The translations under genes and the position numbers were made by a program. From a virus, in IMG/VR virus record IMGVR_UViG_3300030105_002297, positions 1-22,508 of that record: 22,508 nucleotides of DNA, one strand, 5' to 3'. Below are positions 3,606 to 22,253 of the stretch, in pieces. Within the stretch, counting starts at the first letter, position 1, and the number at the start of each line of letters is the position of its first letter. The notes under the pieces were generated by a model. That model searched no databases and was not told the DNA's origin. It saw nothing but the letters and a program-made list of their open reading frames with translations.

Positions 3606-5789
3606 ATGGCAAAGCAATCATTTAATATAAAAAGGTTTGATGCAGGTCTGAACAATAAAGACTCTCAAAAAGATTTAACAGATGGGTTTTTAGCAGAAGC
3701 TACTAATGTTAATGTAGGACACCTAGGTAAGATAATTACCACTGGAAAGCTTGCCAACCTTGGTAGTTCATATACCTTAACAGATGATGGTGACGCTGCA
3801 ATACAACCAGGATATGGATTGTTTAAGTTTAGTAGTGACATCACACCAGGTGGTGGAGCCGCAGCTGCAGAATATCTAGCTTATACATCTCCAAAGGGAG
3901 AAGTGTTCTTAGGCACTAGTGCTACATTTGGTAGTGCAGCAGTATTTGATTCTGCTACTTTACTAGCTTCAGGAAGTGCAACAGATGCACAACCAGTATA
4001 TTATTATGCTGATGGTGGATTACGCATAGCAGATTCAGACTTTGGTAATACAGGAAACGAACAGATAGTATTAGCTAGAATTGAAAGAACTAATGATGCA
4101 CACCCAGATGTTTATACAGCGGCAGTAACAGACCAAATGAAATTTTATAATGGAGGGTTGATAGCACCAGCTGCTGGAGACTTTACCTTAAACTCTGGAG
4201 CATTACACGCACCAGTAGACCCTGCTTCTAATGTAGAAGATGGAGTAGACCCTGCTTCTGGGGATGATTTTAGAATTGAAATGAGCTCTAGTAGTTCTAA
4301 AACGGATGGACTATGGCCAGAAGGAAATTATGCTGTTGGAGTTAGCTATGTATATTTTGGTGGACAAGAATCACTATTAACTAATATCTCATCTCCCATT
4401 GCTATTGCAGATGCTCAGTATTTTATAGCTAGTATGACTATTGCAGATGATGCCTTAAACTCTTTCTTACAGGGGATGAGAATATATGTAAAGAATTTTA
4501 ATAATCCAGAAGATGAATATAGATTGTTACTTGATGTTAACTTTGAGTTAGGTTCTAGAGTGTCATTAGCGGATGAATATGATGCCTTCATCGATGAAGG
4601 AGTCTATGTGGTAACCAATGACACCAATAACAGTGCTACCGACTCTAGAGCCTATGCTATCAAATCACCTGCACTGGATACTTATTCTACTATTAATGGA
4701 TTTCTACCAGAAGAAAAAGCAATTACATTTAATGGAGCTGAAGCATTTTCATATAAGACAGCTACTGTTGCTAATCAAAGAGCATTTGTAGGTAATGTAT
4801 TGTATGTGAATGACGAAGGAGTTCCAAAAGAAATGGGAGATAGAATACAATATACTCCTGTTAGAAAGTATGATACGTTTCCACAGACATACTACTTAGA
4901 TGTAGGAACAAACGATGGTGACGCTATTGTTAAAATTATAGAGTTTGGAGATAGACTCTTTGTATACAAAAAAAATAAATTATTTATTATTAACATTGCA
5001 TCTGGTTCTGATGCTGGTTGGTATGTAGAGGGAGAGTTTGAAAACAGAGGTATCAGTCACCCTGCTGCTGTGGCTAAATCAGACTTAGGATTAGTTTGGG
5101 TAAACGAAAATGGAATGTTTAGTTTTTCAGACACTGTGAACAAACTAAGCGGTGCTATAGATGAAGATAAGTGGGCAACTAATATAGTTGCTACAAGCTG
5201 TTCTGTTGGATTTATACCAAAAACAAATCAAATATTAGTTATAGGAGATTCTACTTCTACTGTTGATAAGGGATATATATATGATGTTGCAACAAAGTCT
5301 TTTGTTAATATAGATATTGCTAACACTTTAGTAAATAAAAAAACTACGAACTTAGTTACTTACAACCAAGAGCTAGTATGTATGGAATTAACCACAGGAA
5401 CAACCGCTGGAGCAGGTAGTAATGATGTCTATACCGTTAAAAGATTTGACACAGACCCAAAAGCACAAACAATAGATGTACAAACTGGAGAGATTGACTT
5501 AGGAGAACCTTCAGTAGATAAAAAGTTTTACGCAGTTTATGTGACACACAAGAATGCAGATGATTTAGTTATTACTGGTGGCTTTGAAGGTGCTGCACCA
5601 ACAACAAACATCTTTGATTCAAATACATTTTCTGATAGCAGTGCAATGGTAACTACAAAGTTTAAGGTAGCTAGTGGTTCTAGGGTTAAAAAGAAATCAA
5701 TACAGCTAAAGATATCAGGAGATTCACAAGCTGATTTTGAAATACAAGACATAACAATAGTTTTTAGGTCTAGAGGAGTAAGAGGATGA
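3606..5789 (+). CDS. Large tail protein, probable tail nozzle/tubular protein
   Basis: 727 aa. The N-terminus KQSFNIKRFDAGLNNKDS, then an 'A-T-N-V' segment near residue 36, is typical of podoviral tail nozzle/stabilisation proteins (T7 gp12 or P22 gp10 type). These start by listing where the mature tube contacts the rest of the tail. The body is beta-rich with many repeated short strands and Gly/Asp turns, as expected for a beta-propeller. Blocks such as RLFVYKKNKLFII and GLVWVNENGMFSFSD near 445-505 resemble propeller blades ('V-x-x-N-x-x-G-x-F'). ATG lies one base after the lysin stop with no clear SD. The next gene overlaps by ATGA. A generic structural protein is the main alternative. Confidence 0.6.
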   Translation: MAKQSFNIKRFDAGLNNKDSQKDLTDGFLAEATNVNVGHLGKIITTGKLANLGSSYTLTDDGDAAIQPGYGLFKFSSDITPGGGAAAAEYLAYTSPKGEVFLGTSATFGSAAVFDSATLLASGSATDAQPVYYYADGGLRIADSDFGNTGNEQIVLARIERTNDAHPDVYTAAVTDQMKFYNGGLIAPAAGDFTLNSGALHAPVDPASNVEDGVDPASGDDFRIEMSSSSSKTDGLWPEGNYAVGVSYVYFGGQESLLTNISSPIAIADAQYFIASMTIADDALNSFLQGMRIYVKNFNNPEDEYRLLLDVNFELGSRVSLADEYDAFIDEGVYVVTNDTNNSATDSRAYAIKSPALDTYSTINGFLPEEKAITFNGAEAFSYKTATVANQRAFVGNVLYVNDEGVPKEMGDRIQYTPVRKYDTFPQTYYLDVGTNDGDAIVKIIEFGDRLFVYKKNKLFIINIASGSDAGWYVEGEFENRGISHPAAVAKSDLGLVWVNENGMFSFSDTVNKLSGAIDEDKWATNIVATSCSVGFIPKTNQILVIGDSTSTVDKGYIYDVATKSFVNIDIANTLVNKKTTNLVTYNQELVCMELTTGTTAGAGSNDVYTVKRFDTDPKAQTIDVQTGEIDLGEPSVDKKFYAVYVTHKNADDLVITGGFEGAAPTTNIFDSNTFSDSSAMVTTKFKVASGSRVKKKSIQLKISGDSQADFEIQDITIVFRSRGVRG

Positions 5790-16870: not shown

Positions 16871-17165
16871 TCTTACTCCACTCAGATAAAGATAAACCTA
16901 CTTGGTTTCCAAATCCTCTATTAAAAGTGAACCCTCTGTTATTTAAGTTCACAATAGATGTATGGTATTCTAACCCAGTTCGTTTATCTTTCACTTTTAT
17001 TTTACTTGCTCCCATTTCTTTAGCTTTTGACAGAGCCAACTCATCAAATGCTATTGCAGGAGGGGTGCGTAAGAAATGCTTAGAAGAGTCTACAGTTTTA
17101 TGTAGAGTATCTCCTTCAACACGACCTACCACCTTCTTGTTTATCTTTACTTGTTTACTTCCCAT
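16827..17165 (-). CDS. Unrecognised conserved-type phage protein (112 aa)
   Basis: 112 aa. Motifs in order are KKVVGRVEGDTLHKTVDSSK (10-29), then HFLRTPPAIAFDELALSKAK (30-49), GASKIKVKDKRTGLEYHTSI (52-71), and a Gly/Phe/Asn-rich NNRGFTFNRGFGNQVGLSL (74-92). The 'K-x-V-x-x-S-K-H-x-L-R-x-P-P-A-I-A-F-D' box is a pattern I have seen in hypothetical proteins of phages and some bacteria, without a function. It looks like a compact alpha/beta domain. The start has only a weak SD, and a 14-bp palindrome lies just upstream. The ERF gene stops 31 nt before its start. Confidence 0.65.
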   Translation of the reverse strand: MGSKQVKINKKVVGRVEGDTLHKTVDSSKHFLRTPPAIAFDELALSKAKEMGASKIKVKDKRTGLEYHTSIVNLNNRGFTFNRGFGNQVGLSLSEWSKSEESQVKIFSPKTK

Positions 17166-17182
17166 TGATTTAACTTAAGGTT

Positions 17183-17196
17183 TTGTCTTAAGACAA
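17183..17196. repeat. 14-bp perfect palindrome between ERF and the next gene
   Basis: TTGTCTTAAGACAA reads the same on both strands. A second CTTAAG (17174-17179) gives an alternative stem with the CTTAAG inside the palindrome (17187-17192). It lies in the 31-base gap between the ERF gene and the 112-aa gene. It could be an operator or an mRNA hairpin. Confidence 0.5.
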
Positions 17197-17871
17197 TCAA
17201 CTGAAAACTTTCTCTACTTCTTCAGCACTTAAGCTAGTGTCTTGTGCATCAATCAATCCTTCTAACCATTTCTTTGTATCTTCAATGGTAGCTGCATTGA
17301 TACGATTACTTTCAAGTCCTTCTCTAACTTTTTCTTTTGTATCATCGCCTAAGCTTTGACACATACCACGCAATATTACTGCATCGGTAGCTGATATAGA
17401 TACACCTTCTACTTTCTCTACCTTCTTAGGTTTAGGTGTAGCTTTCTTTATAGGTTTATCATCAACCTCTATAGCCTTTACATCATTGTCTGCATCACTG
17501 GCAATACCAACGAATGCTGACAAGCTGTATCTTCTGAAGTAAGTGATAGCTGAACCTACAGACTGATATATATTCATCGACTTTGATTCTGCAATCGGTG
17601 TCATCATCCCACTTCGTACCCACTCTCCTGATGTGTGCATATACAAAGTCTCAACACCTATCTCAGCATCAGAGCCTACTGGCATCTGAACAAATGATAT
17701 TCCATGTTTGGTTAGCAATGGTCTAAGGTATTTAACTAATGCATCGTATGATGTATAGTTATATCCATAGCCTTTACTATCGTGTGCCATATCTTCTATT
17801 TCTTTCTGAACCTTGACCTGTGCTGATGCTAGGTTTTTAATTGATTCAGACATTGTTGTTTCTATTCTCAT
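17197..17871 (-). CDS. erf: ERF-family single-strand annealing protein
   Basis: 224 aa. Residues 14-140 carry the ERF pattern: A-x-A-x-V-K-V-Q-K-E-I, then YNYTSYDALVKYLRPLLTKH (38-57), G-I-S-F-V-Q, SGEWVRSGMMTPIA (80-93), and the signature VGSAITYFRRYSLSAFVGIA (105-124) ending SDADNDVKA. This family (P22 Erf type) anneals complementary single strands and drives phage recombination and genome circularisation or repair. The C-terminus after a KKATPKPKK linker (142-150) is a separate helical segment. SD GGAG lies 5 nt before ATG, and the start overlaps the GroES stop (TAATG). A start at M7 is possible. This is the best-supported identification in the left-going block. Confidence 0.9.
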   Translation of the reverse strand: MRIETTMSESIKNLASAQVKVQKEIEDMAHDSKGYGYNYTSYDALVKYLRPLLTKHGISFVQMPVGSDAEIGVETLYMHTSGEWVRSGMMTPIAESKSMNIYQSVGSAITYFRRYSLSAFVGIASDADNDVKAIEVDDKPIKKATPKPKKVEKVEGVSISATDAVILRGMCQSLGDDTKEKVREGLESNRINAATIEDTKKWLEGLIDAQDTSLSAEEVEKVFS

Positions 17872-18140
17872 TATTTCTCCTTTATTATTGCTAGTACTTC
17901 TGTTTCTTTTATTATTAGTATCTGCTCTTCATTCAAAACAACTGGTGTCCCAGAGTAGCTTGAATATAAAACTTTATCACCAATGTTAACATACTTAACT
18001 TCTAACCCTATTGACAAAACTTCTCCTCTGTTTTGCTTCTCTTGATTAGATGGTGCCAATACAATTCCGCTATTTGTTGTTTCTTTAACAGCATCTACTT
18101 TTACTACAATTCTACTTCCTAATGGTTTTATCTTACTCAT
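17871..18140 (-). CDS. groES: Phage GroES co-chaperonin
   Basis: 89 aa. It starts KIKPLGSRIVVKVDAVKE (3-20), the first GroES strand. Next is the mobile loop TTNSGIVLAPSNQEKQN (21-37) with the I-V-L contact residues for GroEL, then RGEVLSIGLEV (38-48), NIGDKVLYSSYSGTPV (52-67), NEEQILIIKETEVLAII (70-86). The 'K-P-L-x-x-R' start, 'G-I-V-L', 'R-G-E-V' and 'I-G-D-K-V' elements are all present. The protein is slightly shorter than bacterial GroES (about 95 aa). Some phages use their own co-chaperonin to fold capsid or other proteins in host GroEL. No GroEL gene is in the window. It is coupled to ERF downstream and overlaps the zinc-ribbon gene by 4 nt upstream. Confidence 0.9.
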   Translation of the reverse strand: MSKIKPLGSRIVVKVDAVKETTNSGIVLAPSNQEKQNRGEVLSIGLEVKYVNIGDKVLYSSYSGTPVVLNEEQILIIKETEVLAIIKEK

Positions 18141-19519: not shown

Positions 19520-20254
19520 TTATCGTTTACTCCATTTACTTTGACCCTTCAATCCACCTCCGCAGTGGTTGAAATAGCCACAATATTTTACATTACACTC
19601 CCACTCATATACTGGTGCGGTGCCTAATGATACCTCTGGTATCCCAATTTTAAATCGTTCATTCACATCTTGCCAATACCTGTAAGCCTTATCAATAAAG
19701 GACTTAGGGACATTGACTTCCCTGATTAAAGAGTTATCTTTGTTGTAATAAACCAGTGCCAACTTCTCTAATTTTAAATTATATTTTTGTTCATACCAGT
19801 AAGCATAAGTGCCTAGCTGTAATGCATAGTTCTCCGCAGGTTCAGGGTCAGGTGTTCTACCAAACAAGTTTTTCCACTTAAAACTATTGCAAGTTTTTAT
19901 ATCATACATAGCATCATCATCCACTATACATATATCAAAGAACCCTCTAACGTTTATATCTTTTATTTGTATCTCTTCTTCAATTAAGATGTCAACCTTT
20001 TCTTTCTCTCCATGTAGGGTTAGTGCATCTTGTATATCTCCATGAACTAAATCACCAAGCCTAAACAATCGCATTGTATTATCATCAATAGGTGAGCTAT
20101 CTACTTGCTCTATACTATTATAATATATTTTACGCATACACATCCCGCTAGATGATGCATGGAACCAATGCTCCTTGTCCTCATATCTATTGATGCGGTT
20201 ATCTTCATTAAGTTTTTGAAGGTATACCCCATAAATATCTTTTATGTCAAGCAC
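19520..20254 (-). CDS. Cas4/RecB-like PD-(D/E)xK exonuclease with four Cys
   Basis: 244 aa. C39 in SSSGMCMRK, R65-L-G-D-L-V-H71 ('R-x-G-x-x-x-H' helix), G104-F-F-D107, D118-I-K120 (the D...DxK metal site), Q146-L-G-T-Y150 (QxxxY), and C220...C225...C231 at the C-terminus. C39 plus the three late cysteines match the 4Fe-4S arrangement of Cas4/AddB-type nucleases, and all catalytic elements are present. The activity is likely 5'-3' single-strand exonuclease making overhangs for ERF-type annealing. No cas genes or CRISPR array are here, so it is a phage recombination nuclease. It overlaps the next gene upstream by 8 nt. Confidence 0.85.
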   Translation of the reverse strand: MLDIKDIYGVYLQKLNEDNRINRYEDKEHWFHASSSGMCMRKIYYNSIEQVDSSPIDDNTMRLFRLGDLVHGDIQDALTLHGEKEKVDILIEEEIQIKDINVRGFFDICIVDDDAMYDIKTCNSFKWKNLFGRTPDPEPAENYALQLGTYAYWYEQKYNLKLEKLALVYYNKDNSLIREVNVPKSFIDKAYRYWQDVNERFKIGIPEVSLGTAPVYEWECNVKYCGYFNHCGGGLKGQSKWSKR

Positions 20255-21009: not shown

Positions 21010-21200
21010 TACTCATCCTCACAGGTTTTATTATCTAACGCATAGTCTTTCTTCTTATCTTCTATTGCGTCTATCTTATCTTGTTCATCTACATCTTTAA
21101 ACTTCTTGCTCATCTCTTTACGCTCTAAGTTCATCGATTCTATGATTTCGAATAATTCAATCTCTTGTCTTATTAAATCTAACTCACTCATCTTACCCAT
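21009..21200 (-). CDS. Small helical protein (63 aa)
   Basis: 63 aa, with a strong SD AAGGAG 7 nt before ATG 21200, which overlaps the upstream gene by 8 nt (ATGGGTAA). Sequence: MSELDLIRQEIELFEIIESM (4-23) makes an amphipathic helix, then a Lys/Glu/Asp-rich helix. One cysteine near the end. Probably a coiled-coil partner in the same run. Family unknown. Confidence 0.6.
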   Translation of the reverse strand: MGKMSELDLIRQEIELFEIIESMNLERKEMSKKFKDVDEQDKIDAIEDKKKDYALDNKTCEDE

Positions 21201-21396
21201 TATCTTTCTCCTTTGTTATTATGTTTTCAGGAAATCTCTCCCATGTATCTATCTTTTCTAGCATAGAAACTGCTAGCTCTTTTCTACCATACACTATATC
21301 GTGTGTCCCATCTGATATGTCATTGATTTCATCATCAGTTACTATATTATCTGCTAACCACTCTTTGATTGCCTGTATTATTTTTTTGTTATTCAT
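21193..21396 (-). CDS. Small acidic helical protein (67 aa), first gene after the structured gap
   Basis: 67 aa from ATG 21396 (AAGGAG about 10 nt upstream). The longer frame from 21432 has no SD. Sequence: NNKKIIQAIKEWLADNIVTD (2-21), then a D-E-I-N-D...GTHDIVYGRKELAVSML helix and ITKEKDNG. This looks like a compact all-helical protein; the family is unknown. It is the first gene of the next transcript segment and comes right after the 400-base gap, whose RNA might control it. Confidence 0.6.
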   Translation of the reverse strand: MNNKKIIQAIKEWLADNIVTDDEINDISDGTHDIVYGRKELAVSMLEKIDTWERFPENIITKEKDNG

Positions 21397-21443
21397 ACTA
21401 CTTATACTCCTTTTGTTAATTAAAGTTCCCATAAATCTTTTGA

Positions 21444-21771
21444 GGCTTTGTTTATAATCTCGTTTGATACTATCGGCGTCTTGCTAAAAAAAGCGTTGGC
21501 GTCCCAGTAGAGCACAGGTATTATTTAATAGCTTACCTCTTCTATATGCTAACCTCAAATCTAGCGGGGGTTTCTGAATATAATTGCTATGCAATAACTA
21601 GTAAGATATTCTTATTAGCATCGTAAAGACGCACATATAACATTTTCTCTCACTACTTACTACCCTAACAAATACTCTCTCGCAAAGAGTAGCGACAATA
21701 TCCACCACCCCCAAGCTTTTTAAGGTAAGTCATTCGCCCTATTATGTTGCAACTTAATGCTAAACAAAGCC
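21444..21771. ncRNA. Candidate structured RNA in the 400-base gap
   Basis: The gap 21397-21797 has no supported gene. Properly nested inverted repeats are: GGCTTTGTTTA/TAAACAAAGCC (21444-21454/21761-21771, 11 bp perfect); GCTTACCT/AGGTAAGT (21531-21538/21723-21730, 8 bp with one G-U in + sense); AGCGGGGGT/ACCCCCaaGCT (21572-21580/21707-21717, 9 bp with a 2-base bulge). Inside are the local hairpins ATTGC/GCAAT (21583-21595), CTAGTAAGA/TCTTATTAG (21598-21618, one G-U in + sense) and TACTCT/AGAGTA (21673-21691). No pair crosses another. It may be a regulatory RNA, a long leader for the gene downstream, or a DNA site; a fold and comparison are needed. Confidence 0.4.
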
Positions 21772-21792
21772 CTATCTTCCACCTACCTTAAA
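21719..21792. repeat. 9-bp inverted repeat next to the 151-aa gene stop
   Basis: TTTAAGGTA (21719-21727) and TACCTTAAA (21784-21792) are perfect complements enclosing 56 bases. The 3' arm is 5 bases from the stop of the 151-aa gene. The 5' arm overlaps the AGGTAAGT arm of the larger structure, so both cannot form at once. Confidence 0.5.
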
Positions 21793-21797
21793 TTCTT

Positions 21798-22253
21798 TTA
21801 CATTGTTGGTATAAATGCTATCCAATCCCCATCAAGATTTTTAAATACAATCTCTCCGCTATCAGTATAGTCCAACTCAAAATCTTCTTTAAATGTTTTC
21901 GTCTTATATCCACTACCCATAGGCAGTTCACTTTTATTCTTTATCATAACGCAACCTAATGTTCCGCTATCTACATGAAGTTTTCCTATGTTGTTATCTT
22001 TCATATTCTTTATCTGGTATGTCCCATCTCCATGTTCTGTTCCATACAAAGATATAATCTTTCCATTTTTTAATGTAAATCTACCGCCAAGCTCTACACT
22101 AGCTACATCTTTGTGCTTATTTTGATTAAAGGGAAATGTTAAATCACATACCTCACTCCAATCTTTATCATCTAAGATATAACATAAATCTCCTATGTAA
22201 TATCTACCTGCTTTCATAATTTCTTTCTTGTGGTTTTTTCTATATACTTTCAT
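21798..22253 (-). CDS. Unrecognised phage protein (151 aa) of a 'YIGDLCY' type
   Basis: 151 aa. The N-terminus is basic (MKVYRKNHKKEIM), then AGRYYIGDLCYILDDKDWSE (15-34), a pattern I recall from small hypothetical phage and bacterial proteins. Next come GGRFTLKNGKIISLYGTEHG, then DGTYQI and a DSGTLGCVMI strand, and the end GDWIAFIPTM. It is beta-rich, with two cysteines and no membrane segment. SD AGGAG 5 nt before ATG (AGGAGAACAAATG). It overlaps the upstream gene by 14 nt. Function unknown. Confidence 0.7.
   Translation of the reverse strand: MKVYRKNHKKEIMKAGRYYIGDLCYILDDKDWSEVCDLTFPFNQNKHKDVASVELGGRFTLKNGKIISLYGTEHGDGTYQIKNMKDNNIGKLHVDSGTLGCVMIKNKSELPMGSGYKTKTFKEDFELDYTDSGEIVFKNLDGDWIAFIPTM

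Follow-up and report, generated by a model that had tools for sequence, protein, structure and literature searches.

Does the gap between two early genes of this uncultured phage specify an RNA and, if so, where does that RNA begin and end, and what may it do? The gap lies in the 22,508-nt stretch analyzed here (i.e., the window, positions 1 to 22,508 of IMG/VR record IMGVR_UViG_3300030105_002297, which is 41,872 bp in full). It is bordered upstream by a gene for a 151-aa protein (21798 to 22253; phrog_20074) and downstream by a gene for a 67-aa protein (21193 to 21396; no Pfam match); these and all other genes and elements of the window described below are on the minus strand. An earlier note on this DNA had taken positions 21444 to 21771 for a nested structure closed by an inverted repeat, possibly an undescribed phage RNA, in the longest gap of the genome. 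The gap between the flanking ORFs is the longest in the window but not in the whole record, where a 428-nt gap occurs at record positions 27104 to 27531. The stretch does contain an RNA that is conserved, shows covariation, and matches no Rfam family, and its real extent is 21560 to 21717 (here called core A), not 21444 to 21771.

The repeat itself is present as described, with GGCTTTGTTTA (21444 to 21454) and TAAACAAAGCC (21761 to 21771) forming a perfect 11-bp inverted repeat around 306 bases. Its role as a closing feature did not hold up. The window contains 7 perfect inverted repeats of ≥11 bp with a spacing of ≤400, compared with 2 to 8 (mean, 4.7) in 10 whole-window shuffles, and an 11-bp repeat fell within the 365-nt gap in 2% of shuffles. 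The left arm is part of module B, a conserved element described below, and the arm sequence GGCTTTGTTTA was found in no relative. The right arm lies in insert U (21718 to 21797), an 80-nt segment with its own terminal stem that was absent from the 21 other genomes and from the viral contigs searched; four matches to an 18-mer of the insert were unrelated. Because no relative carries insert U, the enclosing stem is private to this genome. A single 328-nt RNA closed by the repeat would agree with the single-sequence fold of the minus strand, which has the repeat as its outermost stem, but the confinement of the right arm to an insert without relatives and the chance-level number of such repeats make that reading extremely unlikely. 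On the same two grounds, sequence comparison indicates that the repeat is due to chance and peculiar to this one genome.

Relatives were collected through the proteins of both flanking genes, and their gaps share a block with the window. This block is core A, a conserved structured RNA of about 158 nt, for which the window copy gave a full-length match to covariance model R1 (177.9 bits). Homologues were sought by an exact scan for GGGGGTGGTGGATATTG, two further patterns, and the covariance model, and they were found in 15 other viral records, making 16 records with one copy each; some copies are near-identical (G004, G006, and G009; also G028 and G029). All records are metagenome assemblies. 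The copies are 145, 146, 157, 158, 177, or 226 nt long, with indels that are not multiples of three, and no open frame common to them was found. This rules out a conserved protein gene in the gap, the alternative that the earlier note had raised. Two further viral contig matches (L027 and L177) were dismissed as chance, as were 26 genome-contig matches to the core 18-mer in a collection of 84,980 species; the motif does not continue in the latter, which thus supply no host or prophage homologues. GenBank phages gave no DNA match, and no cultured phage relative was found at the DNA level.

In minus-strand orientation, which is that of the flanking genes and of early-gene direction, the consensus of core A is a closed three-way junction composed of a P1-P2 trunk, a short hairpin (P3), and a long arm (P4-P6). 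The 5′ strand of P1 (21707 to 21713) contains GGGGG and its 3′ strand (21565 to 21571) contains CCCCC, so the G-rich and C-rich patches that the earlier note had pointed out are the two strands of this helix. Five of the seven P1 pairs are invariant, and the others show G-U/A-U exchanges. P2 (21698 to 21704 with 21575 to 21581) is paired in 100% of alignment cells, and P3 (21673 to 21691) has eight pairs, one of which changes from C-G to U-A, and a GCG loop. The trunk sequence CUUGGGGGUGGUGGAUAUUGUCGC is invariant. In the long arm, the 5′ strands (21652 to 21671) pair with the 3′ strands (21584 to 21602), with five double-change pairs in alignment A1 and six in alignment A2. The apical part of the arm (21603 to 21651) contains GAGAAAATG and AATNAGAATATC, both conserved in alignment A1, on either side of a variable stretch into which insertions have been made in L020 and L024.

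None of the 38 predicted pairs is lost in the window copy, and 98.2 to 98.4% of cells are paired across the family. When partners were slid, pairing fell to 41 to 56%, and the number of pairs with double compensatory changes fell from 6 or 7 to between 0 and 3. Among the nine distinct sequences, 98.2% of pair cells held standard pairs, compared with 41 to 55% for slid partners, and six pairs had double changes; the covariation score was 0.253, compared with 0.144 in shuffles, none of 500 of which reached the observed value. The diverged copy of G029 (L159), which had no part in building the model, kept 36 of 36 scorable pairs. Taken alone, the double-change count was unremarkable by comparison with column shuffles (97/500 and 54/500), and the support for P1, P2, and P3 comes mostly from one-sided changes, much of the trunk being invariant; hence, P4-P6 bears most of the proof. 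Folding was also more stable than that of shuffled sequences, both for the 158-nt core (z scores of −4.7 on the minus strand and −2.4 on the plus strand) and for the whole gap (−2.9 and −3.1, respectively), and in this respect the nested folding described in the earlier note was borne out on either strand. Thus, of the spacing and pairing that the earlier note had asked of homologues, neither survives for the outer repeat, but pairing is retained in the inner core. Compensatory changes in homologues keep the pairing of core A, the pattern by which a conserved structured RNA is recognized from sequence.

The same alignment bears on the possibility that the element is a folded single-stranded DNA signal, for instance one for replication, recombination, or packaging. 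The single copy, fixed orientation, and strong hairpins would suit such a signal, as would the many replication genes of the arm. The alignment, however, contains 49 G-U cells and no A-C cells, which means that pairing is kept as RNA and on this strand only, and that selection acts on the minus-strand RNA. Moreover, the likely replication origin is elsewhere, in gaps outside the window that are rich in iterons or contain DnaA-box-like sites, and we consider a DNA signal unlikely. Two long gaps fall into this class, at record positions 27104 to 27531 (L026 4705 to 5132) and 25836 to 26201 (L026 3437 to 3802); one is rich in ATTAGGGTA-type iterons, and one lies at divergent genes and has GTTATCCACA-like DnaA boxes. 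A run of N is located within another intergenic gap (L026 about 4303 to 4316; record about 26702 to 26715).

Core A was found in every terminase-selected record of the close clade (i.e., terminase identity of ≥84%) that reaches the region (G002, G007, G010, G011, G028, and G029). The other close-clade records stop short of it, as their landmark genes are missing, and the apparent lack of core A there is explained by these records ending before the region. Core A is accordingly less likely to be an optional element that moves about. In relatives with about 72% terminase identity, a search with filters off gave nothing convincing (best E value, 0.64). Long gaps in that clade (G045 and G052) were considered as RNAs and rejected, since those that we read include missed genes (e.g., HNH-type ORFs); gene calls outside the window missed some genes. 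From the sequences searched, core A appears to be restricted to one clade of uncultured marine phages. The terminase, portal, and capsid proteins of the phage have distant PHROGs matches and match cultured phages at about 22 to 28% identity, and relatives of the terminase are very common in IMG/VR.

This distribution, together with the type of terminase, also bears on a packaging RNA like the pRNA of phi29, that is, an early-region three-way-junction RNA that would assemble on the terminase motor. The size, the closed junction, and the early location of core A are similar, and every clade member covering the region has one copy. In addition, an invariant UCGC before P3 is complementary to GCGA of the P3 loop, so that contacts between core A copies are possible. 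However, no Rfam model, that for phage pRNA included, matches core A, relatives with about 72% terminase identity show no copy, and the terminase is not of the phi29 ATPase type, as it matches phrog_38 and adjoins a small-subunit-like gene. We therefore regard a role in packaging as very unlikely.

The minus-strand arm of the window is the early, DNA-metabolism arm; on the same strand as core A and downstream of it are genes for an Erf-like annealing protein, a Cas4-like exonuclease, and GroES. The Erf-like gene (17197 to 17871) is near the gene for the Cas4-like PD-(D/E)XK exonuclease (19520 to 20254), and a phage-encoded GroES cochaperonin (phrog_3188) is specified by 17871 to 18140. In most genomes, no more than about 10 nt separate core A from the stop codon of the upstream gene, and core A is always in the operon direction. 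The gene contexts around it number at least five upstream and at least eight downstream. Because flanking genes vary among relatives while core A stays, action in trans is suggested rather than action in cis, and the persistence of this single-copy element while surrounding genes are replaced points to a real function.

The assignment of core A to an undescribed structured RNA family is well supported by sequence comparison; its function we infer. With moderate confidence, we favor a structured RNA of the early arm that acts in trans by binding protein. Core A would be transcribed from early promoters within a message, would fold alone into the closed three-way junction (P1-P2 trunk, P3, and P4-P6), and would survive, or be trimmed out, as a stable small RNA. 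It may then bind a phage or host protein through the invariant trunk (CUUGGGGGUGGUGGAUAUUGUCGC and P3) and the conserved apical sequence. A role in taking over a host machine or in countering host defense would agree with its location among early genes. No promoter was detected immediately upstream of core A, which counts against an independent transcript.

The main rival, to which we give clearly less credence, is that core A acts in cis where a transcription unit ends. It would then be an mRNA element marking the close of an early transcription unit ahead of the next internal promoter. It might protect a 3′ end, limit read-through, or load an antitermination complex onto RNA polymerase in the manner of the HK022 put RNA. 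The proximity to the upstream stop codon and the constant orientation suit such an element, as does a promoter-like motif located after core A, or after core A plus module B, in 9 of 13 distinct contexts (near-identical records being counted once); this placement thus counts against the trans reading as well. In the window, the motif (TGGGAAC-N18-TATAAG; 21401 to 21431) overlaps the ribosome-binding site of the next gene, and in the relatives checked, the motif TTGGGAACYTTWATT...GTATAAGTAGTA has many intergenic copies per genome. The motif (TTGGGAACYTTWATT-N-GTATAAGTAGTA) is phage-wide, and the GGAACYT within it is similar to the −35 element that ECF sigma factors use. Against a boundary element, a ribosome-binding site follows core A immediately, with no promoter, in G007, G012, and G028/G029, and element C takes that place in G002. 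No terminator-like site or intrinsic terminator was found at core A on the minus strand, an antiterminator would be expected near the operon start whereas core A is up to about 4 kb in, and the long conserved sequence exceeds the needs of a stability hairpin.

Core A is accompanied by further elements in several genomes. Module B (21439 to 21559) is an optional second structured element that is closed by TTTGAGG/CCTCAAA and follows core A in six relatives (L018, L022, L011, L009, L017, and L020). Its terminal stem varies yet remains complementary (UUUGAGG/CCUCAAA, UUACAGG/CCUGUAA, and UUUGAGG/CCUUAAA). L015 and L024 lack it cleanly, and at that place the filled copies have short direct repeats (AGATTT and TAATT); core A thus stands alone. 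Under the trans reading, module B would be an optional extension of core A.

Other noncoding elements were seen in relatives. Element C (360 to 400 nt; L010:149-508, minus strand; L011:2263-2620; L018:2516-2911) lies beside core A, has a 12-bp terminal stem (ATTGGAGATTAT/ATAATCTCCAAT), and showed 13 pairs changed on both sides in a two-sequence comparison. Element D is intergenic and about 700 nt long (L025:5200-5900, minus strand), is placed directly after core A between two promoter-like motifs, and folds very stably (−196 kcal/mol for 705 nt). Neither C nor D had an Rfam match above chance. Elements E1 and E2 are in G009 at 17095 to 17470 (L061) and 21050 to 21305 (L062 2050 to 2305), respectively. 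The leader AAAGATATTTGAAA is common to E1, E2, C, and D, and E2 ends with a module-B-like part (ATTAAGGTTCGG...AATGCCTTAAT). In the record studied here, a short leader element with a long stem (ATTTAATTAAGATGAG/CTCATCTTGATTAAAT) follows a promoter-like motif at record positions 23228 to 23370 (L026 829 to 971), and the same start occurs in G011.

A speculative and rather doubtful extension is that the clade has a modular early-region RNA toolkit directed against host machinery or defenses, with universal core A and exchangeable B, C, D, and E (C to E of 250 to 700 nt). If true, it would parallel, at the RNA level, the variable islands that encode small early proteins directed against the host. 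Early-region biology of phages has mostly been sought in small proteins, and clade-wide structured phage RNAs without a known family are rare. To judge from the adjoining elements B, C, D, and E, noncoding RNA may be used by these phages more than is usually assumed, and the alignment and covariance model of core A provide a defined object for testing.

Searches for known RNAs gave no family. At the gathering cutoff, Rfam 15 (4227 models) matched nothing in the window or in ten relatives; no match up to an E value of 5 was obtained for window positions 21350 to 21900, and permissive searches of three relatives returned chance-level matches only, among them a lone miRNA match (E value, 4.1). 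ARAGORN detected no tRNA or tmRNA in the window. The Rfam check proposed in the earlier note, and its remark that tmRNA, RNase P, and tRNA motifs are lacking, thus lead to the same result. Models for phi29-type pRNA and for GOLLD and ROOL gave no match.

Among known systems, the pRNA of phi29 is encoded in the early region and forms a three-way junction with closed ends. Core A is alike in size range, junction, and region but is matched by no pRNA model and accompanies a terminase of another type, so that a packaging role is conceivable by analogy only. The put RNA of HK022 and similar antitermination RNAs are structured and lie within early phage transcripts. Core A is likewise structured and on the strand of early genes, but it is much larger, is present as a single copy in midoperon rather than at the operon start, and shows no link to a terminator. 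Candidate structured RNAs are known from bacterial and marine metagenomes (PMC2864571); like them, core A came from comparing intergenic regions of uncultured sequence and has no known function, and no Rfam model matches it. GOLLD and ROOL are large ornate RNAs of phages and prophages (PMC12286853). Core A differs from them in size (about 158 nt versus several hundred), in sequence and fold, and in its confinement to one marine clade, but it resembles them in having no assigned biochemical function and in being noncoding, structured, phage carried, intergenic, and modular in look.
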